The notes under the pieces are model-generated. The model had not been told where the DNA came from. It was given only the letters and a program-made list of their open reading frames with translations, and ran no database searches. A stretch of 64,000 nt of DNA from Acidimicrobiia bacterium (lineage in GTDB: Bacteria; Actinomycetota; Acidimicrobiia; Acidimicrobiales; MedAcidi-G1). Of the stretch, positions 32,931-44,739 are shown piece after piece. The stretch lies in the NCBI GenBank assembly GCA_012959995.1, contig DUCC01000029.1:1-64000 (forward strand). The letters run 5' to 3'. Every line of letters begins with the position of its first letter. Within the stretch, counting starts at the first letter, position 1. The position numbers were made by a program, and so were the translations under genes.

Positions 32931-34160
32931 ATGAAGCAACCAAACACCGACGACATGGTCCACGTCACCCGATGGGCGTGGGGAGAAAAAGAATGGTCAC
33001 CGTTTTCGGCCGCCGAAATGGACCGTCGACAAAACGCATTACGTGCTCACCTTGACGCCGAAAATATTGATGCCTGTCTGCTGACCTCTTTTCACAACAT
33101 CTGCTACTACTCCGGTTGGCTGTACTGCTACTTCGGGCGTAAATACGGCATGGTCATCGACGCTCAAGCGGCCACCACCATTTCTGCAGGCATCGACGGC
33201 GGCCAACCATGGCGACGCACCCACGGCGACAACGTGGTGTACTCCGACTGGCGACGAGACAACTACTACCAAGCAGTGCGCTCACTACTCAAAGGCGCCA
33301 AACGCTTAGGCGTCGAGTTCGACCACCTCAGCGTGGAACAATTCCAAGCCCTACAAACTGAACTCGACGGCGTAGAACTGGTCGACATAGGCGCCGCCAC
33401 CATGTGGATGCGCACCATTAAATCCCCCGAAGAACACGACCTGATTCGCCACGGCACCCGCATCTGCGATCTGGGCGCCGCCGCCTGCGTAGAAGCAGTG
33501 GCCGCCGGGGTGCCCGAACACGAAGTAGCCCTCGCTACCACCCAAGCCATGGTGCGCGAGATCTCCCAAAGTTTCCCCTTTGTAGAACTCATGGACACGT
33601 GGACCTGGTTCCAATCGGGCATCAACACCGATGGCGCCCACAACCCGGTCACCAACAAACTGATTGAATCGGGTGACATATTGTCTATCAATACCTTCCC
33701 CATGATCTTCGGTTACTACACGGCGCTGGAACGCACCCTGTTTTGCGACCACGTGACCAGCGACGAACACCTTCGACTCTGGGAAATAAACGTCGAAGTG
33801 CACGAACGGGGTCTCGAACTCATTGTGCCCGGCGCCCGCTGCTGCGACATTGCCGCCGAACTCAACGACATTTACCGCAGTTACGACCTGCTGCAATACC
33901 GCTCATTTGGTTACGGCCACAGCTTCGGGGTGCTCAGCCACTACTACGGCCGAGAAGCCGGGGTAGAACTACGCGAAGACGTAGAAACAATACTGGAACC
34001 CGGCATGGTGGTTTCCATGGAACCCATGATCGCTATCCCCGACGGCCAACCCGGCGCCGGCGGTTACCGCGAACACGACATTTTGATTATCGGCGACCAA
34101 GATGCCGAAAATATTACCGGCTTCCCCTACGGCCCGGACCACAACATCATCGACGGCTAA
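32931..34160 (+). CDS. Creatinase (creatine amidinohydrolase), M24 family
   Basis: 409 residues, matching the length of Pseudomonas creatinase. Many stretches agree with that enzyme from memory: ALRAHLDAENIDACLLTSFH, NIDGGQPWRRT-like IDGGQPWRRTHGDNVVYSDW, LMDTWTWFQSGINTDGAHNP, FGYYTALERTLF, QYRSFGYGHSFG and VVSMEPMIAIPDGQPGAGGY. The active-site His and Glu residues in those motifs are kept. It hydrolyses creatine to sarcosine and urea. Start ATG follows GAGAGGAACCGC. The stop overlaps that of the hydantoinase by 4 bp, tail to tail. Confidence 0.9.
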   Translation: MKQPNTDDMVHVTRWAWGEKEWSPFSAAEMDRRQNALRAHLDAENIDACLLTSFHNICYYSGWLYCYFGRKYGMVIDAQAATTISAGIDGGQPWRRTHGDNVVYSDWRRDNYYQAVRSLLKGAKRLGVEFDHLSVEQFQALQTELDGVELVDIGAATMWMRTIKSPEEHDLIRHGTRICDLGAAACVEAVAAGVPEHEVALATTQAMVREISQSFPFVELMDTWTWFQSGINTDGAHNPVTNKLIESGDILSINTFPMIFGYYTALERTLFCDHVTSDEHLRLWEINVEVHERGLELIVPGARCCDIAAELNDIYRSYDLLQYRSFGYGHSFGVLSHYYGREAGVELREDVETILEPGMVVSMEPMIAIPDGQPGAGGYREHDILIIGDQDAENITGFPYGPDHNIIDG

Positions 34161-37100
34161 CTCGGCGAGCCGAAACCGCCGCCACCCGGGGTTTCTATTT
34201 CTATACGATCGCCCGTTACCACGTTGGTTTGAGCACTGGCCCCAAACTCGGTGATCGTGCCATCGGCAGCAATCAACCGGGTGTGACCCACCGCCCCCGG
34301 CAACCCGCCATCCACCCCGTAAGGCGGCACCACCCGATGACCCGACAACACGTTGACCTCCATGGCTTCTTCAAAAAACACTCGACGCACCGTGCCGTCG
34401 CCGCCCCGGTGCTTTCCCGCCCCGCCAGACCCTCGCCGGATATGAAAAGTTTCAAGTCTCACCGGAAAACGCCACTCCAAAACTTCCGGGTCGGTTAACC
34501 GAGAGTTCGTCATATGGGTATGGACCGCATCGCAGCCATCGGCCCGAGCAGTGGCCCCTGAACCGCCACAAATGGTTTCATAGTTTTGGTAGTCGTCGTT
34601 GCCCCAAATAAAGTTATTCATCGTCCCCTGTGGCGCAGCCAACACCCCGACCGCCCCAAATAAAGTGTCCACCACCACCTGGCTGGTTTCAACATTGCCG
34701 GCAATCACGGCCGCCGGGTACGACGGGTTAATCATCGACTCATCAGGCAAAACCACCTGCAAAGGCTTCATGCACCCGGCGTTCAAAGGAATGTCATCGT
34801 TGACCAAACAGCGAAACACATAAAGCACCGCCGCATGGGCAATAGAAGAAGGAGCATTGAAGTTGCCGGGGTGCGTGTCGCTGGTACCAGTGAAATCAAT
34901 ACAGGCCGAACGGTCAGCGTGGTCCACGGTAATGGTCACCGAAACCTGATGGCCATCATCCATTCGGTAAGTAAACGACGAATCGGTCAAGGCATCAATA
35001 ACTCGCCGTACCGACTCTTCGGCGTTATCTTTGACATGGCCCATATAGGCGTGCACCACCTCGAGGCTGTAATGGTCGATGACCTGCCGCAACTCGGTGG
35101 TGCCTTTTTCGCAAGCCGCCACCTGGGCTTGTAAATCGGCAATGTTTTGCTCTGCGTTACGAGCCGGCCAACGGCCACCCGTTAACACGGCATGAATCTC
35201 GTCATAAAGAAAACGACCTTGCGAAACCAGCAACAAGTTGTCGATCAACACGCCCTCTTCGTCCACCGTGGTGGAATCCGCCGGGGCCGACCCGGGCACC
35301 CGGCCACCCACATCCGCATGGTGGCCCCGCGAAGCAACATAAAAAATCACTTCGGTTTCCGCATCGTTAAACACCGGCTTAATCACCGTAATATCAGGCA
35401 GATGGGTGCCGCCGTTGTACGGAGCGTTCATCACGTACACATCGCCCGGGTTCATGTGCGGGTTCTGGCGAATAATTGACTTAATGGATTCACTCATTGA
35501 ACCCAAATGCACCGGCATATGCGGGGCGTTGGCGATCAACTCGCCGCTGGGGTCAAAAATGGCGCACGAAAAATCCAGCCGTTCCTTAATGTTGACCGAA
35601 GCCGCCGTGTTCTCTAACACCACCCCCATTTGCTCGGCGATGTTCATAAATAAGTTGTTGAAGATCTCCAACTGCACGGGGTCAACGGTGGTGCCCACCG
35701 CTACCTGAGCGGGTAGCGCCTCTACTCTTTCAAGCACTAAGTCGCCGTTGGTTTGCGCAGTAGCGGCCCATCCCGGTTCGACCACGGTGGTGCCGGTTTC
35801 TTCTAACAACACGGCCGGGCCAGCCAAAGGCTGCCCTGGAGTCAACGAAGAACGATCAACAAACACCGTGTCACGGCTTTGGCTCGCCATGACTGTGGAG
35901 AACACTCCTTGCTGGCCGGCTCCGGGAGCAGCAGCCTCCGGCACCAAGTCCACAGCATCGGTGGCCCCCACGGTCTCCACCTGCATGGACTCTACGACGA
36001 GAGTTTTTTCGGGCGAAATAAAACCAAAACGGGCCCGATGCTGCTCTTCAAAAGCGGCCTGCACCTCGGCCACCGAACCAGCATCCACCGACAACGCAGT
36101 ATCCGAACCGGCGTAACGCAAACCCAGACGACGTACCGCAGAAATGCGATCCTCGGCAACCCCCTGGCTAGCCACCGTGGCCCGACCATCAGCTTCCATT
36201 TGTGCCCAACGGGCAGCCAAACCGGCTAAAAGATCATGATCCAAATTGGCTTCAACCGAGCCGTCAACCACCTGGCGTATATCGGCCAACCCAATACCTA
36301 AAGCCGAAAGCACCCCGGCATGAGGGTGCAGGTGAATACGAGAAATACCCAGACGATCAGCCACCAGTCCAGCGTGCTGCCCGCCCGCCCCACCAAAACA
36401 AACCAAGGTGTACGAAGTGATGTCATAGCCCCGCTGCACAGAGATTTTCTTAATGGCATTAGCCATGTTTTCTACGGCAATAGAAAGAAAACCCTCGGCA
36501 ATGGACTCAGGGGTTTGCCTCACCCCAGAAGCAGCAGAAATAGTGTCGGCCAAAGCATCAAATTGTTGACGCACCGTGGCGACATCTAAAGGCTGGTCGC
36601 CTTGCGGGCCAAAAACTTGTGGGAAAAACTCTGGGCGCAAACGACCCAACAATACGTTGGCATCGGTGATAGCCAACGGGCCGCCGTTGCCGTAACAAGC
36701 CGGGCCCGGGTCGGCACCCGCCGAATCGGGGCCCACCCGCAAGCGCGCCCCATCAAAATGCAGAATCGACCCGCCACCCGCGGCCACCGTATGAATGTGA
36801 ATCATGGGAGCCCGCACCCGCACCCCCGCCACCTGCGTTTCATGAGTGCGCTCAAGCTCACCGGCGTAATGCGACACGTCGGTGGAAGTACCGCCCATGT
36901 CGAAACCGATCAGTCGATCAAAACCCGCTGCTTCAGCGGTACGCACCATGCCCACCACACCACCCGCCGGCCCAGAAAGCAAAGCATCTTTGCCTTGAAA
37001 ATGGTGAGCATCGGTCAGGCCACCGTTGGACTGCATAAACATGAGCCGCGGCCCTTGCCCATCGGGACGCAGTTGGCTATCAACTTGGTTGACGTAACGA

Positions 37101-37756
37101 CGCAAAATGGGGGACAAGTAAGCATCGACCACCGTGGTGTCGCCTCGAGAAACCAGCTTCATCAACGGGCTCACCTCGTGGCTAACCGACACCTGACTAA
37201 AGCCCAATTGGCGAGCCAAAGCTCCAAGCGCCGCTTCGTGTTCGGTGTAGCGATAGCCATGCAACAAAGCAATAGCTATTGAGTCAAAGCCAGCATCTTG
37301 GGCGGCTTGCAGGGCAACACGTGCTGCAGCTAAATCAAGGGCCGTAAGAACCTCGCCCTGAGCCGTCACCCGCTCATCAACTTCAACAACTTCTTGGTAA
37401 AGCATTTCGGGTAAAACAATGTCTAAGGCAAACAACTCAGGCCGCGCTTGGTAACCGATACGCAGGGCATCAGCAAAGCCCTTGGTGGTAAACAAAACAG
37501 TGGGCTCACCTTGGCGTTCCAACAAGGCATTGGTGGCTACCGTGGTACCCATTTTTACGGCATCAATGGCTTCGGCGGGCAAGGGTTCGCCGTGGCCTAC
37601 ACCCAACAAATGGCGAATGCCAGCAATAGCCGCATCGTCATAATGACGAGGATTTTCCGACAACAACTTATGAGTCACCGTGGTGCCATCGGGGCGGCGC
37701 GCTACCACATCGGTAAAGGTCCCGCCTCGATCTATCCAAAATTGCCAACCGCTCAT
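34157..37756 (-). CDS. Fused HyuA/HyuB hydantoinase, 5-oxoprolinase type
   Basis: About 1199 residues from ATG at 37756. The N-terminal half is HyuA-like (GWQFWIDRGGTFTDVVARR near residue 3, FDMGGTSTDVSHY around residue 290) with an ASKHA-type ATPase fold. The C-terminal half from about residue 700 is HyuB-like (LEIFNNLFMNIAEQMGVVLE, DVYVMNAPYNGGTHLPDI, FHIRRGSGGAGKHRGGDGT). Full fusion at this length is the architecture of ATP-dependent 5-oxoprolinase. Related enzymes also open N-methylhydantoin, which would fit a creatinine pathway beside creatinase. Substrate is not settled by sequence. Confidence 0.85.
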   Translation of the reverse strand: MSGWQFWIDRGGTFTDVVARRPDGTTVTHKLLSENPRHYDDAAIAGIRHLLGVGHGEPLPAEAIDAVKMGTTVATNALLERQGEPTVLFTTKGFADALRIGYQARPELFALDIVLPEMLYQEVVEVDERVTAQGEVLTALDLAAARVALQAAQDAGFDSIAIALLHGYRYTEHEAALGALARQLGFSQVSVSHEVSPLMKLVSRGDTTVVDAYLSPILRRYVNQVDSQLRPDGQGPRLMFMQSNGGLTDAHHFQGKDALLSGPAGGVVGMVRTAEAAGFDRLIGFDMGGTSTDVSHYAGELERTHETQVAGVRVRAPMIHIHTVAAGGGSILHFDGARLRVGPDSAGADPGPACYGNGGPLAITDANVLLGRLRPEFFPQVFGPQGDQPLDVATVRQQFDALADTISAASGVRQTPESIAEGFLSIAVENMANAIKKISVQRGYDITSYTLVCFGGAGGQHAGLVADRLGISRIHLHPHAGVLSALGIGLADIRQVVDGSVEANLDHDLLAGLAARWAQMEADGRATVASQGVAEDRISAVRRLGLRYAGSDTALSVDAGSVAEVQAAFEEQHRARFGFISPEKTLVVESMQVETVGATDAVDLVPEAAAPGAGQQGVFSTVMASQSRDTVFVDRSSLTPGQPLAGPAVLLEETGTTVVEPGWAATAQTNGDLVLERVEALPAQVAVGTTVDPVQLEIFNNLFMNIAEQMGVVLENTAASVNIKERLDFSCAIFDPSGELIANAPHMPVHLGSMSESIKSIIRQNPHMNPGDVYVMNAPYNGGTHLPDITVIKPVFNDAETEVIFYVASRGHHADVGGRVPGSAPADSTTVDEEGVLIDNLLLVSQGRFLYDEIHAVLTGGRWPARNAEQNIADLQAQVAACEKGTTELRQVIDHYSLEVVHAYMGHVKDNAEESVRRVIDALTDSSFTYRMDDGHQVSVTITVDHADRSACIDFTGTSDTHPGNFNAPSSIAHAAVLYVFRCLVNDDIPLNAGCMKPLQVVLPDESMINPSYPAAVIAGNVETSQVVVDTLFGAVGVLAAPQGTMNNFIWGNDDYQNYETICGGSGATARADGCDAVHTHMTNSRLTDPEVLEWRFPVRLETFHIRRGSGGAGKHRGGDGTVRRVFFEEAMEVNVLSGHRVVPPYGVDGGLPGAVGHTRLIAADGTITEFGASAQTNVVTGDRIEIETPGGGGFGSPS

Positions 37757-37983
37757 CAATGCTCCCGAAACAAAACGCCTAAACCCTCAAGCCGGTCATC
37801 TATGCCGGCCAAGCGTAAACAATGCCACAACATGGCTTGGTTAGACGACACGCAAGGCCTGTCCTCGCACAGAGTTACCAATCCCGAGGGCACAAGTGCA
37901 ACAAAGGTAAAAAGCACGAAGGTCAGCGCGGGTTGGTTTGACCGGAATATTTGTCTTTGCTGGCGATATTGACGGGGATGCAC
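37756..37983 (-). CDS. Possible small or truncated ORF coupled to the hydantoinase
   Basis: A 75-codon frame whose TGA stop overlaps the hydantoinase ATG (TGATG). The last 30 residues (AMLWHCLRLAGIDDRLEGLG, then VLFREH) look protein-like; the start has a hydrophobic run (FVLFTFVALVPSGLVTL). No family is recognised and no ribosome site was seen. It may be the tail of a decayed gene or a real small protein. The gap between divergent genes here is otherwise empty. Confidence 0.25.
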   Translation of the reverse strand: MHPRQYRQQRQIFRSNQPALTFVLFTFVALVPSGLVTLCEDRPCVSSNQAMLWHCLRLAGIDDRLEGLGVLFREH

Positions 37984-38025: not shown

Positions 38026-39207
38026 ATGCCAGATGTTGAACTAAATTTTAGCCGAGAAGAGTACGCCGCTCGGTTAACCAAGGTACGCCAGTCCATGGAA
38101 AACCACGGCCTTGATGTGGTGGTAACCACGGACCCTTCCAACATGTCTTGGCTAACCGGGTACGACGGCTGGTCTTTTTATACGCCCCAAGCCGTCATCG
38201 TTACCCTCGACGATGACCCCATCTGGTGGGGTCGAGGCATGGACGCCAAAGGGGCACTCCGCACTGTCTACATGGACGAACGTCACATCGTGGCTTACTC
38301 CGACGATCACGTGATGTCCACCGAACGCCACGCTTTCCAACACTTGGCGGCCTTATTGGTCGCCTCTCGTTTTAGTCAGGCCACCATTGGGGTGGAACTT
38401 GACAATTACTATTATTCGGCGGCTTCCCATGGCCATTTGTTGGCTGGTTTGCCCGAAGCCACCGTGGTTGACGCTACGGCGCTTATTAACTGGCAACGGG
38501 CCGTGAAGTCGGCGCAAGAACTGGTTTATATGCGTCGCGCTGCCACCATTGTCGAAAATATGCATAACCGAATTCTTGAACTGGTTGAGCCTGGATTACG
38601 AAAAAACGATTTGGTGGCTGAGGTGTACCACACAGCAATCTCTGGCACCGATGAATTTGGCGGCGACTACCCGGCCATGGTTCCGCTCATGCCCACTGGG
38701 GCTGACGCTTCGGCAGCGCACCTCACCTGGAACGACAAACCGTTCGAAAACGAGGCGGGGACCTTTTTTGAATTGGCCGGCTGCCACCGCCGCTACCACG
38801 TGCCGCTGTGTCGGTCGGTGTATTTGGGTACGCCGCCGCAAAAAATGGTCGAAGCTGAAAAAGCGCTGGTGTCAGGGCTAGAAGCCGGGCTAGCAGTCGC
38901 TCTACCCGGCAACCGGGCATGCGATATAGCGAATGCCCTACACGACGAGTTAGCCAAAGCCGGCATTGAGCGCGACGCCCGCTGCGGTTACCCCATTGGT
39001 TTGAGTTACCCACCCGACTGGGGAGAGCGCACCATTTCATTACGGGGTACCGACGAATCCATTTTGAAACCGGGCATGACTTTTCATTTCATGCCCGGTA
39101 TCTGGATGGACGACTGGGGGCTAGAAATAACCGAAAGTTTCGCCGTCTCTGCTGAAGGGGCCCCTGAAGTGTTTGCCGACCTGCCGCGCAAACTCTTTGT
39201 GAAATAG
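38026..39207 (+). CDS. doeA: Ectoine hydrolase DoeA, M24 family
   Basis: 393 residues from ATG at 38026, which has AAGGGG upstream and aligns with the family start; the frame to 37951 is longer without support. Diagnostic stretches are VVTTDPSNMSWLTGYDGWSF, WWGRGMDAKGALRTVYMD, GVELDNYYYSAASHGHLL, INWQRAVKSAQELVYMRRAA, FFELAGCHRRYHVPLCRSVY and YPIGLSYPPDWGERTISLRG. DoeA opens ectoine to N-acetyl-diaminobutyrate. The next gene, 2 bp away, encodes a deacetylase that could act on this product. Confidence 0.85.
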   Translation: MPDVELNFSREEYAARLTKVRQSMENHGLDVVVTTDPSNMSWLTGYDGWSFYTPQAVIVTLDDDPIWWGRGMDAKGALRTVYMDERHIVAYSDDHVMSTERHAFQHLAALLVASRFSQATIGVELDNYYYSAASHGHLLAGLPEATVVDATALINWQRAVKSAQELVYMRRAATIVENMHNRILELVEPGLRKNDLVAEVYHTAISGTDEFGGDYPAMVPLMPTGADASAAHLTWNDKPFENEAGTFFELAGCHRRYHVPLCRSVYLGTPPQKMVEAEKALVSGLEAGLAVALPGNRACDIANALHDELAKAGIERDARCGYPIGLSYPPDWGERTISLRGTDESILKPGMTFHFMPGIWMDDWGLEITESFAVSAEGAPEVFADLPRKLFVK

Positions 39208-39209
39208 CC

Positions 39210-40370
39210 ATGCTGGACGACACGCTAAAAATTCTTGATGACTTGATCGCTTTTGAGTCGGTGGCTTTGACCCCCAATTTGGATCTCATTGATTATGTGG
39301 TGAACTACCTTGAACCTTTGGGGGCGCGCCTTACCTTGACGCACAGCCCAGACCAAACCAAGGCAAACCTCTTCGCCACTTTGGGGCCAGAAGGCAACGG
39401 AGGGATAGTGCTCTCTGGGCACAGTGACGTGGTGCCGGTAGACCCCGCCGACTGGGCCACCCCACCGTTTACTACCGACTATCGCCAAGGCCGTGTTTAC
39501 GGGCGAGGTACGGCCGACATGAAAGGGTTTATTGCTTGCGTGTTGGCTATGGCGCCTCGCTATGCGGCATTGGACCTAAAACGACCGCTGCACATTGCTT
39601 TGACCTTCGACGAAGAAGACGGCTTTCATGGGGCACCCATCCTTTTAGAAGAATTGGTGCGCAACGGGCCCACCCCAGCGGCGGTCATCATTGGTGAGCC
39701 AACCGGCCTCCGAGTGGTTGGTGCTCATAAAGGGTGCTTTGAATACACCACCACCTTTACCGGAATAAATGGCCATAGTTCACTGCCCGACGAAGCAGTC
39801 AGCGCCGTGCATTATGCGGTGCGCTTTATTGCTCGACTTCTTGAACTTGGTGCAGCCTTGCCGGCCTTGGCACCAACCGACAGCCCTTATCATCCGCCCT
39901 CGAGCACGGTAAACGCGGGGGTTATTTCTGGGGGTATAGCCCGCTGCACGGTGGCCGGAGACTGCGTGGTGGAGTGGGAAATGCGCCCTATCCAAGATTC
40001 TGATGCCGACTTTGTGCGTACCGAACTGGCGGCCGCTACAGAAGTATTGGTGGCTGAGATGCGTCAGACGCACCCTGAGGCGGCCATAGAAACTGAAACA
40101 GTGTGCGAGGTGCGCGGGTTGGAGTTCGCCGAGGGTTCCCCCGCTTTGTTGCTTATGGGGGAGTTGTTGGGGGAAAACCCGGTTGAGGTGGTGTCTTACG
40201 GAACCGAAGCAGGGCTTTTTCAAGCAGCGGGGGTGCCGGCAGTGGTGTGGGGGCCAGGTGACATTGAGGTGGCCCATAAGCCTGACGAATCGGTGGCTTT
40301 GAGTGACCTCGAAGCGTGCCTTGAGGCCTTAGAAAAACTAGGACTAGATATCCTCACGAAAACGTTATAG
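39210..40370 (+). CDS. ArgE-like M20 deacetylase (acetylornithine deacetylase family)
   Basis: 386 residues. Metal-binding motifs are present: GIVLSGHSDVVPVD, YGRGTADMKGF, LTFDEEDGFHGA and VVSYGTEAGLFQAAGVPAVV with GDIEVAHKPDESVAL. Dimer-domain residues NGHSSLPDEAVSAV also fit. ArgE removes the acetyl group from acetylornithine; N-acetyl-diaminobutyrate, the DoeA product, is one carbon shorter. Because the gene follows doeA by 2 bp, I infer it replaces DoeB, the usual unrelated deacetylase. Alternative: a general acyl-amino-acid deacetylase. Confidence 0.85.
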   Translation: MLDDTLKILDDLIAFESVALTPNLDLIDYVVNYLEPLGARLTLTHSPDQTKANLFATLGPEGNGGIVLSGHSDVVPVDPADWATPPFTTDYRQGRVYGRGTADMKGFIACVLAMAPRYAALDLKRPLHIALTFDEEDGFHGAPILLEELVRNGPTPAAVIIGEPTGLRVVGAHKGCFEYTTTFTGINGHSSLPDEAVSAVHYAVRFIARLLELGAALPALAPTDSPYHPPSSTVNAGVISGGIARCTVAGDCVVEWEMRPIQDSDADFVRTELAAATEVLVAEMRQTHPEAAIETETVCEVRGLEFAEGSPALLLMGELLGENPVEVVSYGTEAGLFQAAGVPAVVWGPGDIEVAHKPDESVALSDLEACLEALEKLGLDILTKTL

Positions 40371-40422: not shown

Positions 40423-42189
40423 ATGACCAAAATGACCCCCAGCGAAGCCTTCGTCGAGACCATGGTGGCAAACGGCGTTGACACCACCTTTGGCATCATG
40501 GGTTCAGCTTTCATGGACGCCATGGACATTTTTGCCCCCGCTGGCATTCGCCTCGTCCCCGTAGTGCACGAACAAGGCGCCGCCCACATGGCAGACGGCT
40601 ACGCCCGAGTAAGCGGCCGCCACGGTGTAGTGGTCGGCCAAAACGGCCCCGGCATCTCCAACTGCGTTACGGCCATCGCCGCCGCCTTCTGGGCCCACAG
40701 CCCGGTAGTTATCGTCACCCCCGAAACCGGCACCATGGGCATCGGCCTGGGCGGCTTCCAAGAAGCCAACCAACTCCCCATGTTTCAAGAATTCACCAAA
40801 TACCAAGGCCACATCAACAACGAACACCGCATGGCCGAAATAACCGCCCGCTGCTTCGACCGGGCCATGTCAGAAATGGGCCCCACCCAACTCAACATTC
40901 CCCGCGACCGCTTCTACGGCGACATTGATGTAGAAATCGCCGAACCCATGCGCCTCGATCGTGGCCCCGGCGGCGAACGCACCCTCAACGAAGCCGCCGA
41001 CCTTTTGGCCCAAGCAGAATTCCCGGTACTTATTTCTGGCGGCGGGGTAGTGATGGGCGATGCCATGGACGACGCCATAGCGCTGGCCGAACGCCTCGGT
41101 TGCCCAGTTGTAAACAGTTACCTCCACAACGACTCCTTCCCCGCCAGCCACCCACAATGGTGTGGCCCTCTCGGCTACCAAGGCTCCAAAGCCGCCATGA
41201 AACTCATTGCCCAAGCCGACGTAGTACTGGCCCTCGGTACCCGCTTAGGCCCCTTCGGCACCCTGCCCCAACACGACATGGACTACTGGCCCGCCAACGC
41301 CAAAATCATCCAAGTGGACGCCGACCAAAAAATGCTGGGCCTGGTAAAGAAAATCTCCGTCGGTATCTGCGGCGACGCCGGTGCCTCGGCCCGAGCACTA
41401 ACCGATCGCTTAGCCGACCGCACGTTGGCCTGCGACGCCACCCGAGAAGAACGCGCTGCCCGCACCGCCCAAGAAAAAGAAACATGGGAAGCCGAACTCG
41501 ACGACTGGACCCATGAAACTGATGACTTCAGCATCGAAATGATTAAAGAAGCCATCGACGAACCAGACAACTGGCTGCACCCCCGCCAAGTATTGCGTGA
41601 ACTTGAAAAAGCCATGCCAGCCCGAGCCATGGTGTCCACCGACATTGGCAACATCAACTCGGTAGCCAACAGTTACCTGCGCTTCGAAGAACCACGCTCC
41701 TTCTTTGCCGCCATGAGTTGGGGCAACTGCGGCTACGCCCTACCCACCATCATCGGCGCCAAAGCAGCCGCCCCCGACCGCCCCGCCATTTCTTACGCCG
41801 GCGACGGAGCTTGGGCCATGAGCATGAGCGAACTAATGACCGCCGTACGCCACGACATTCCCGTGACCGCCGTGGTATTTCACAACCGCCAATGGGGCGC
41901 CGAAAAGAAAAATCAAGTGGACTTCTACGGTCGCCGTTTCGTAGCCGGAGAACTCGACGGCGGCGAAGACTACTCAGAAATCGCCCGAGCCATGGGTGCC
42001 CAAGGCGTACGGGTCAACGAACTTGAAGAAGTAGGCCCCGCACTCACCGCAGCCATAGAAGCACAAATGAACGACGGAGTCACCACGGTCATCGAAATCA
42101 TGTGCACCAAAGAACTCGGTGCGCCGTTTCGCAAAGACGCCCTGTCGACACCAGTACGCAACCTCGAACAATACATCGACTACGTGTAG
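40423..42189 (+). CDS. xsc: Sulfoacetaldehyde acetyltransferase Xsc
   Basis: 588 residues, the size of known Xsc. From memory the closest agreement is with Xsc and not acetolactate synthase: GIMGSAFMDAMDIFAPAGIR, HEQGAAHMADGYARVSG (catalytic Glu), GQNGPGISNCVTAIAAAFW, GLGGFQEANQLPMF, LHNDSFPASHPQWCGPLGYQ, VLALGTRLGPFGTLP and VDADQKMLGLVKKISVGICG. The enzyme uses ThDP and phosphate to split sulfoacetaldehyde into acetyl phosphate and sulfite. GGAGA lies upstream of the ATG. It leads an operon with an iron alcohol dehydrogenase and a glutamine synthetase homologue. Confidence 0.85.
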   Translation: MTKMTPSEAFVETMVANGVDTTFGIMGSAFMDAMDIFAPAGIRLVPVVHEQGAAHMADGYARVSGRHGVVVGQNGPGISNCVTAIAAAFWAHSPVVIVTPETGTMGIGLGGFQEANQLPMFQEFTKYQGHINNEHRMAEITARCFDRAMSEMGPTQLNIPRDRFYGDIDVEIAEPMRLDRGPGGERTLNEAADLLAQAEFPVLISGGGVVMGDAMDDAIALAERLGCPVVNSYLHNDSFPASHPQWCGPLGYQGSKAAMKLIAQADVVLALGTRLGPFGTLPQHDMDYWPANAKIIQVDADQKMLGLVKKISVGICGDAGASARALTDRLADRTLACDATREERAARTAQEKETWEAELDDWTHETDDFSIEMIKEAIDEPDNWLHPRQVLRELEKAMPARAMVSTDIGNINSVANSYLRFEEPRSFFAAMSWGNCGYALPTIIGAKAAAPDRPAISYAGDGAWAMSMSELMTAVRHDIPVTAVVFHNRQWGAEKKNQVDFYGRRFVAGELDGGEDYSEIARAMGAQGVRVNELEEVGPALTAAIEAQMNDGVTTVIEIMCTKELGAPFRKDALSTPVRNLEQYIDYV

Positions 42190-42216
42190 GCGAGTTATCT
42201 CCGGTACCGTTTGGGG

Positions 42217-43386
42217 ATGACTGAACTTAACGCAACCTGGGGTTTCCCCACCCAAATACGCATCGGTGCGGGCCGCATTAGCGAACTACCCCAAGCCTGT
42301 GTAGCGGCTGGCATGACCCGGCCACTCATCGTCACCGACCCCGGGATTGCCCAACTACCCCTCTTAGGCGTGGTCCAAGCAGCACTGGCCGCCGACGGGA
42401 TAACCGCCGGGGTGTTCACCGATGTCCGGGCCAACCCCGTGGGGGCCAACGTGGACGCCGGCGTAGCGGCCTACAAAAGTGGCGACCACAACGGAGTAGT
42501 GGCCTTGGGCGGTGGTTCAGCCCTAGACGTTGGCAAATTAGTGGCCCTCATGGCGGGCCAAACCCGCCCCCTCTGGGACTTCGAAGACATCGACGACTGG
42601 TGGACTCGAGCCGACGCGGAACTCATCGCACCAGTAGTAGCGGTACCCACCACCGCGGGCACCGGGTCCGAAGTAGGACGCGCCGGGGTAGTCATCAACG
42701 AAACTCAAGGCCGCAAAGTCATTGTCTTCCACCCGGCATTGCTACCCAAAGCAGTCATCTGCGACCCCGAACTAACGGTCGGACTACCCCGCATGCTCAC
42801 CGTCGGCACCGGCCTCGACGCACTCTCGCATTCCCTCGAAGCGATAAGCGCCCCCACCTTTCACCCCATGGCTCACGGCATCGGCCTCGAAGGCAGCCGC
42901 CTGGTGCTCGAACACCTGCCCCGCGTCGCCGCCAACCCCGAAGACCTCGACAGCCGCACCGCCATGCTGGCCGCCGCCGCCATGGGAGCCGTGGCCTTCC
43001 AAAAAGGTTTAGGAGCCATGCACGCCTTAGCGCACCCCATCGGCGCCACCTTTGACACCCACCACGGCATGACCAACGCCGTAGTGATGCCCTACGTATT
43101 AGAAGTCAACCGACCCGCCATAGAAGAAAAAATAGCGTCCCTAGCCGCCTACGCAGGCATCACCGGCGGCTTCGACGGGTTCATGGAACACCTCTTGGCT
43201 CTGCGGTCCGCCCTCGACGTGCCCCACACTTTGGTGGACCTCGGCGTAGACGCCAACGCCGTAGACGCCATTTCTGCCGCGGCCGCCGTAGACCCCTCAG
43301 CGGGCACCAACCCGCTGCCTTGCACCCCCGAATTTGCCGCCCAAGTGTTCACCGCAGCCTGTAACGGCACATTAGCCGTAGGATAA
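42217..43386 (+). CDS. Iron-containing alcohol dehydrogenase
   Basis: 389 residues from ATG at 42217. NAD motif VVALGGGSALDVGKLVALMAG, TTAGTGSEVGRAGVV, the metal-binding DALSHSLEAISAPTFHPMAHGI and GAMHALAHPIGATFDTHHGMTNAVVMP are all present. Its position between xsc and a GS-like gene suggests it forms or removes sulfoacetaldehyde, for example isethionate oxidation; an iron alcohol dehydrogenase (SarD) is known to act on sulfoacetaldehyde in Bilophila. That substrate is inference. Confidence 0.85.
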   Translation: MTELNATWGFPTQIRIGAGRISELPQACVAAGMTRPLIVTDPGIAQLPLLGVVQAALAADGITAGVFTDVRANPVGANVDAGVAAYKSGDHNGVVALGGGSALDVGKLVALMAGQTRPLWDFEDIDDWWTRADAELIAPVVAVPTTAGTGSEVGRAGVVINETQGRKVIVFHPALLPKAVICDPELTVGLPRMLTVGTGLDALSHSLEAISAPTFHPMAHGIGLEGSRLVLEHLPRVAANPEDLDSRTAMLAAAAMGAVAFQKGLGAMHALAHPIGATFDTHHGMTNAVVMPYVLEVNRPAIEEKIASLAAYAGITGGFDGFMEHLLALRSALDVPHTLVDLGVDANAVDAISAAAAVDPSAGTNPLPCTPEFAAQVFTAACNGTLAVG

Positions 43387-43392
43387 AACGCC

Positions 43393-44739
43393 ATGACCCC
43401 CGACGAACTCCAAGTTTCCGTAGCCGACGGCACCATCCACACCGTAGTAATGGGCTTCACCGACCACTACGGCCGCACCATGGGCAAACGATTCGACGCC
43501 GAATTTTTCTGCGAAGTCATCGAAGACGGCACCCACGCCTGCGACTATTTGCTCACCGTTGACATGGAAATGGAACCCGTAGAAGGCTACGACTACGCCA
43601 ACTGGGCCGGCGGATACGGCGATTTTCACCTAGTGCCCGACCTCGACACTTTGCGCCGAGCCGCCTGGACCGAAGGCACAGCATTTGTATTGTGCGACAT
43701 TCACCAAGGCGACGACCACCAACTCGTTGAAGTAGCCCCCCGATCTATTTTGCGCCGCCAAGTAGACGCCGCAGCCCAAGCAGGCTTCACCATCGCCGCC
43801 GCCTCCGAACTGGAATTCTTTCTCTACCGAGACTCCTACCAAGAAGCCCACACCAAGGGATACCGAGACCTACAAGCCGCCGGCTGGTACGTCGAGGACT
43901 ACCACCTCTTACAAGGAGCCCGAGTAGAAGATTACGTCGGAGCCGCCCGCCGAGTACTGACCGCCTCGGGCGTACCAGTAGAAAACTCCAAAGGCGAAGC
44001 AGCCATTGGCCAACACGAACTCAACATTCGCTACACCGACGTGCTGACCATGGCCGACCGCCACGTAGTCATGAAACAAGCCATGAAAGAACTCGCTGAC
44101 CAACAAGGAGTCAGCGTGACCTTCATGGCCAAACCCGATGCCGACCAACCCGGCAACAGTTGCCACCTGCATCTCAGCTTGTGGCAAGGCGACACCAACG
44201 CTTTTGTAGGCGACGGCCCCGACGGTCGCTCGGACCTGTTTCGCTGGTTCCTCGGTGGATGGATGCGCCACTGCGCCGACCTGATGCCCTGCTACGCCCC
44301 CACGGTTAACTCGTACAAGCGTTACCAAGATGCCTCTTGGGCACCCACCCGCATTGCCTGGTCTACCGACAACCGCACCGCCGGTTTTCGCATCGTGGGA
44401 ACCGGTTCAGGGCTACGCATCGAAAACCGTATTCCCGGCGGCGACGTCAACCCCTACCTAGCGTTTGCGGCGGCCCTAGCCAGCGGCCTCGACGGCATAG
44501 CCAACCAAATAGAGCCACCCGATGAGTTCAAAGGCGACGTTTACGCCGCCACCGATTTGCCCACCGTGCCCCACAGCCTCGAAGCCGCTAATACACAATT
44601 TGGAGCCAGCAGCGAAGCCCGCCGACTATTAGGTGACGTGGTAGTCGACCACTACCACCACTTTTTTGCCAGCGAAGTCGCCGCCCACCAAAAAGCGGTA
44701 ACCGACTGGGAACACCGCCGCTACTTCGAACGCATCTAG
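43393..44739 (+). CDS. Glutamine-synthetase-family ligase (PuuA/GlnA3-like)
   Basis: 448 residues, typical for the non-assimilatory GS group. ATP and metal motifs are visible: AASELEFFLYRD, VENSKGEAAIGQHELNIRYTD, FMAKPDADQPGNSCHLHLSL and CYAPTVNSYKRYQDASWAPTRIAWSTDNRTAGFRI with RIENRIPGGDVNPYLAFAAAL. Relatives attach glutamate to amines (putrescine, isopropylamine, methylamine). In this operon it may glutamylate an amine linked to sulfonate use, but that is inference. It is 6 bp from the dehydrogenase and has AGGA upstream. Confidence 0.85.
   Translation: MTPDELQVSVADGTIHTVVMGFTDHYGRTMGKRFDAEFFCEVIEDGTHACDYLLTVDMEMEPVEGYDYANWAGGYGDFHLVPDLDTLRRAAWTEGTAFVLCDIHQGDDHQLVEVAPRSILRRQVDAAAQAGFTIAAASELEFFLYRDSYQEAHTKGYRDLQAAGWYVEDYHLLQGARVEDYVGAARRVLTASGVPVENSKGEAAIGQHELNIRYTDVLTMADRHVVMKQAMKELADQQGVSVTFMAKPDADQPGNSCHLHLSLWQGDTNAFVGDGPDGRSDLFRWFLGGWMRHCADLMPCYAPTVNSYKRYQDASWAPTRIAWSTDNRTAGFRIVGTGSGLRIENRIPGGDVNPYLAFAAALASGLDGIANQIEPPDEFKGDVYAATDLPTVPHSLEAANTQFGASSEARRLLGDVVVDHYHHFFASEVAAHQKAVTDWEHRRYFERI

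Follow-up and report, generated by a model that had tools for sequence, protein, structure and literature searches.

The ectoine hydrolase gene doeA of the Acidimicrobiia genome studied here is followed by a gene for an ArgE-type deacetylase of the M20 family that, judging from sequence and gene context, very probably deacetylates N-alpha-acetyl-L-2,4-diaminobutyrate (alpha-ADABA) after DoeA, in place of DoeB. Surveys of other genomes suggest that, in the breakdown of ectoine, enzymes of this type widely take the place of the usual second enzyme. Ectoine is common in the sea as an osmolyte and a nutrient, and alpha-ADABA differs from acetylornithine in having a side chain one carbon shorter. 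In the proposed scheme DoeA would open the ectoine ring to yield alpha-ADABA, which the metal-dependent M20 enzyme would deacetylate to diaminobutyrate with release of acetate, thereby replacing the unrelated DoeB. We infer this substrate, this product, and this direction of the pathway for the pair; the chemistry would be that of ArgE, and the two substrates are so close that an ArgE-like enzyme would need little change.

The two genes lie in the window (the whole stretch of 64,000 nucleotides that was analyzed), which comes from contig C29. The genome is 2.03 Mb in size and 96.7% complete, and the named relatives closest to it are Acidimicrobiales and Actinomycetota MAGs. The doeA gene (also eutD; 38026..39207, plus strand), whose ATG is preceded by the Shine-Dalgarno-like sequence AAGGGG, encodes a protein of 393 amino acids with the M24/creatinase fold. 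The protein matched nearly all 391 positions of the ectoine hydrolase model TIGR02993 with a score of 605.5 bits, which is 7.5 bits short of the curated cut-off of 613, and in relatives from the same family that carry the pair DoeA reaches 617-626 bits. Its best match in the PDB was 6twk ("Ectoine hydrolase DoeA"; E = 2.6e-152, residues 3-393). The M20 gene (39210..40370, plus strand) encodes 386 amino acids and, as the preliminary description had stated, starts 2 bp past the doeA stop codon (TAG-CC-ATG). Its product consists of the domains Peptidase_M20 and M20_dimer only, and it exceeds the cut-offs both of the acetylornithine deacetylase model TIGR01892 (361 versus 298 bits) and of PRK07522 (429 versus 412 bits).

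An AlphaFold2 model of the M20 protein (mean pLDDT 95.5) had as its best PDB match the di-zinc form of Escherichia coli ArgE, 8uw6 (TM 0.82, 31% identity). The residues that bind metal or take part in catalysis (H71, D103, E135, E136, E163, and H356) align with those of the E. coli enzyme and are invariant in the 48 members of the family that we aligned. The same alignment revealed a motif, HKGCFEYTT (residues 173-181; 39726..39752, plus strand), in which two residues are characteristic of the doeA-linked family: position 176 (C176) is cysteine in 44 of the 48 members, and position 178 (E178) is glutamate in all of them. Four plasmid-encoded "argE" proteins of at most 43% identity, none of them near doeA, have HKGK and lack the glutamate. 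These differences suggest that the HKGC-E segment may help to set the substrate of the enzyme.

The preliminary description had proposed that an ArgE-type enzyme could stand in for DoeB, as a non-orthologous replacement, and genomic context supports this proposal. No match to the DoeB model TIGR02994 was found at E ≤ 0.001 across the whole window genome, and hence no doeB gene, which would have spoken against the proposal, lies elsewhere in it. The same genome yielded no clear doeD, the best candidate showing 37% identity. Ectoine synthase is likewise absent from the window genome, so the ectoine that it uses is presumably scavenged from outside; no ectoine transporter was identified in that genome.

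We surveyed 395 genomes of the class Acidimicrobiia, 14 of which had a strong DoeA. DoeB scored above its cut-off in three of these only (G391, G312, and G271), in each case directly beside doeA, and in these three genomes the ArgE-type M20 was absent. Ten others, including the window genome, had the M20 gene beside doeA and no DoeB above the cut-off. Thus, DoeB and the ArgE-type M20 are mutually exclusive in the doeA genomes of the class. The other nine M20 proteins are 49-98% identical to that of the window, and the distance from doeA ranges from -4 to 17 bp; G247 is the exception, with a eutB-like gene between the two. In two distant members of the class (G222 and G247) the M20 gene is clustered with eutB, eutC, and ehuBCDA. 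Eight of the ten genomes with the pair belong to one family, and therefore the ten do not represent ten independent events. In the fourteenth genome (G358), DoeA is more distant and the cluster includes an M20D amidohydrolase.

The arrangement extends well beyond the class. When GTDB was scanned with the aligned M20 proteins and the best 80 loci were kept, the M20 gene was found directly behind doeA and on the same strand in 57, so the pairing is not a chance neighborhood. The distance between the two genes in these loci had a median of 5 bp (53 gaps were of 60 bp or less, and several were 4-bp overlaps). The loci came mostly from Alphaproteobacteria (Roseobacteraceae, Paracoccaceae, Phyllobacteriaceae, and Devosiaceae) and also from Acidimicrobiia; many of the genomes are related, and hence the counts are not independent. 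At least one further ectoine gene was present nearby in 41 of the 57 loci, and at least three (among eutB, eutC, ehuABCD, asnC, doeC, and doeD) were present in 21. DoeB was found in none of the stretches around the 57 loci, nor did it exceed the family cut-off in any of 50 genomes of the GTDB set: 40 had no match at 1e-50, and the other ten had, elsewhere in the genome, an AstE/AspA-family protein of about 200-290 bits, well under the DoeB cut-off, that might serve as a distant DoeB. In both Acidimicrobiia and Alphaproteobacteria, then, the adjacency survey placed the M20 gene in the doeB slot with DoeB absent, in keeping with the earlier proposal. The regulator EnuR was not found in the stretches around the M20-linked pairs; a regulator beside doeA and "argE" in Mesorhizobium was considered as a candidate and rejected, as it did not match EnuR at E ≤ 1e-10.

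The remaining 23 of the best 80 M20 genes, from Roseovarius, Pelagibacteraceae, and other groups, lay away from doeA, which counts against the proposed role. Those of the Pelagibacteraceae (SAR11; L143, L151, L154, L155, and L157-L161) encode members of the same M20 clade with no doeA nearby and adjoin a gene whose product is 32-37% identical to DoeC. In L143, the one SAR11 locus inspected, the M20 protein has the HKGC-E motif.

A less biased sample of 385 alphaproteobacterial genomes, 52 of them with a strong DoeA, provided 63 stretches around doeA genes. DoeB was present in 23 of these, the ArgE-type M20 was directly beside doeA in 8, neither was present in 32, and none had both. DoeB is thus the commoner partner in this sample, and doeA can occur with neither of the two. 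One of the eight stretches with the M20 gene (L219, from G798, a genome sampled as alphaproteobacterial) is probably a misplaced contig, since in the tree its M20 protein is identical to that of the actinobacterial genome G244.

In a phylogenetic tree of M20 proteins, all those linked to doeA formed one clade with their unlinked near relatives, apart from the paralogs of the class itself. A DoeA tree of 104 rows showed only 6 switches in the type of partner (M20 or DoeB), as compared with 26 in shuffles, near-copies among the rows adding to this clustering, and strongly supported branches forced at least three switches. The type of partner therefore goes with the DoeA lineage, apart from a few replacements.

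Might the M20 enzyme act on another acetylated intermediate of ectoine breakdown, such as the gamma-acetyl isomer or the hydroxy-alpha-ADABA derived from hydroxyectoine, while some other enzyme handles alpha-ADABA? The DoeA of Halomonas elongata gives both the alpha and the gamma isomer (PMC5924519). Many M20-linked clusters include the hydroxyectoine genes eutB and eutC, but the doeA-M20 pair is also found without either of them nearby. ArgE-type enzymes, moreover, cleave alpha-acetyl groups, and no DoeB above the cut-off is available to take care of alpha-ADABA. We consider this explanation improbable.

Even less probable, in our view, is that the M20 protein is a genuine acetylornithine deacetylase of arginine synthesis that lies beside doeA by chance. 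Its scores with TIGR01892 and PRK07522 are those of an ArgE, and relatives in Mesorhizobium are publicly annotated as argE. In the cyclic acetyl pathway, however, arginine can be made without an acetylornithine deacetylase when ArgJ is present. ArgJ is encoded in the window genome, which consequently needs no ArgE for arginine synthesis, and on this ground we rejected such a role for the M20 protein there; ArgJ was likewise found in all 46 of the genomes with the pair that were tested. Furthermore, the M20 gene adjoins doeA rather than arg genes in both Acidimicrobiia and Alphaproteobacteria, and G299, a genome of the same family as the window genome, keeps ArgJ with neither this M20 nor doeA at the threshold used.

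Behind the M20 gene (40423-44739, plus strand) are genes for Xsc (sulfoacetaldehyde acetyltransferase, 1008 bits), an iron-type alcohol dehydrogenase, and a glutamine-synthetase-like protein, with successive gaps of 52, 21, and 6 bp starting from the M20 gene. Xsc is also encoded near the doeA-M20 pair in five other cases (G370, G348, G334, L084, and L085), with 87-90% identity, hinting that taurine-type osmolytes and ectoine are used together. It is very unlikely that the five co-directional genes from doeA to the glutamine-synthetase-like gene form an operon for some other acetylated osmolyte (for example, N-acetyltaurine, which would furnish sulfoacetaldehyde for Xsc) and that the annotation of doeA is misleading, for despite the proximity of xsc here and in those relatives, the alphaproteobacterial pairs, many of them in full ectoine clusters, showed no Xsc beside them, and DoeA aligns along its whole length with the solved ectoine hydrolase.

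Other genes near the pair and in ectoine clusters merit mention. Upstream of doeA and divergent from it (34157-37759, minus strand) is a gene for a fused HyuA/HyuB-type (hydantoinase/oxoprolinase) protein of 1200 amino acids, whose best curated match, to the alpha and beta subunits of caprolactamase, is far under the cut-off. Beyond it (32931-34160, plus strand) is a gene for a second hydrolase of the M24/creatinase fold, which is not DoeA (55 bits) and has relatives of 60-67% identity near doeA in four alphaproteobacterial stretches (L212, L213, L214, and L220). A PLP enzyme of the cystathionine-gamma-synthase family recurs in actinobacterial and Bacillota ectoine clusters (L019, 2836-4014; L030, 2122-3294; L023, 10397-11572; L026, 10805-11941; and L036, 10234-11433), in which it is 62-64% identical to that of Priestia.

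Returning to the ArgE-type enzyme as a substitute for DoeB, we think it probable that a large, unnamed ArgE-type family carries out the second step in the breakdown of ectoine by many bacteria from the sea and from soil (Roseobacters, Devosia, Phyllobacteriaceae, and Acidimicrobiia), that it has co-diversified with its DoeA partner, and that it has so far been missed. Members of the family may also replace EutE in a hand-over of product, as EutE has been proposed to aid the release of product from EutD (PMC8739950). One survey of ectoine consumers picked genomes by the juxtaposition of eutD and eutE (PMC8739950), and another was centered on genomes with EutD, EutE, and EutB (PMC13188858); lineages that use an ArgE-type enzyme would be missed by surveys so keyed. 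Annotation would have contributed as well: the enzyme is recorded as an acetylornithine deacetylase with a GO term for ornithine biosynthesis, so that genome annotations assign a gene of probable catabolic function to the wrong pathway.

How does the enzyme compare with those already known or suspected to serve at this step? The deacetylation is performed in the standard pathway by DoeB, or EutE (PMC5924519, PMC8739950), a member of the AstE/AspA family (TIGR02994). DoeB resembles the window M20 in its slot behind doeA and in the reaction proposed but belongs to a different protein family, and the two were found together beside doeA in no genome examined. E. coli ArgE (7rsf, 8uw6) and PRK07522 share the fold and catalytic residues of the window M20, which in addition scores above the curated cut-offs. 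What sets the window M20 apart from ArgE is its linkage to doeA, the presence of ArgJ, and the C176/E178 motif, which is missing from the less similar "argE" proteins. Its relatives are annotated as acetylornithine deacetylases, as is the one beside doeA on a Mesorhizobium plasmid.

Closer in role is DoeB2 (NF038260), which NCBIfam already curates as an M20D amidohydrolase acting in the role of DoeB. In alphaproteobacterial stretches we saw it beside a second type of DoeA (NF038259), in the gene order doeB-doeD-doeA-doeC. The same order has been reported in Methylomicrobium alcaliphilum. There, DoeB shares only 22% identity with the enzyme of Halomonas, and a doeB mutant shows alpha-acetyl-DAB (PMC7192451); we infer that this DoeB is a DoeB2. 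DoeB2 and the window M20 have in common the M20 superfamily, the role of DoeB, and a gene near that for a DoeA-type hydrolase, but DoeB2 represents another M20 subfamily (TIGR01891), another gene order, and another type of DoeA. Identification of the window M20 as DoeB2 was rejected, since NF038260, with its cut-off of 550 bits, was not among the best 25 families for the protein, the 25th of which scored 62 bits; BLASTP against a DoeB2 member gave 25% identity over 154 amino acids (E = 0.05). Finally, Bacillota ectoine clusters that lack eutE carry an abgB gene (PMC13188858). Its product (as in Priestia, L036) is, like the window M20, an M20 hydrolase in a eutD cluster without eutE, but it is an M20D amidohydrolase whose gene is not directly adjacent to eutD and whose role the authors left open.

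Our search of the accessible literature found no description of the pairing of doeA with an ArgE-type M20. As DoeB2 is already curated, an M20 enzyme in place of DoeB is a known principle, and the ArgE-type branch alone looks new. The ArgE-type M20 would then be a third solution to the deacetylation step, after DoeB and DoeB2, and, if so, one and the same step would be served by three or more enzymes that are unrelated or only distantly related.
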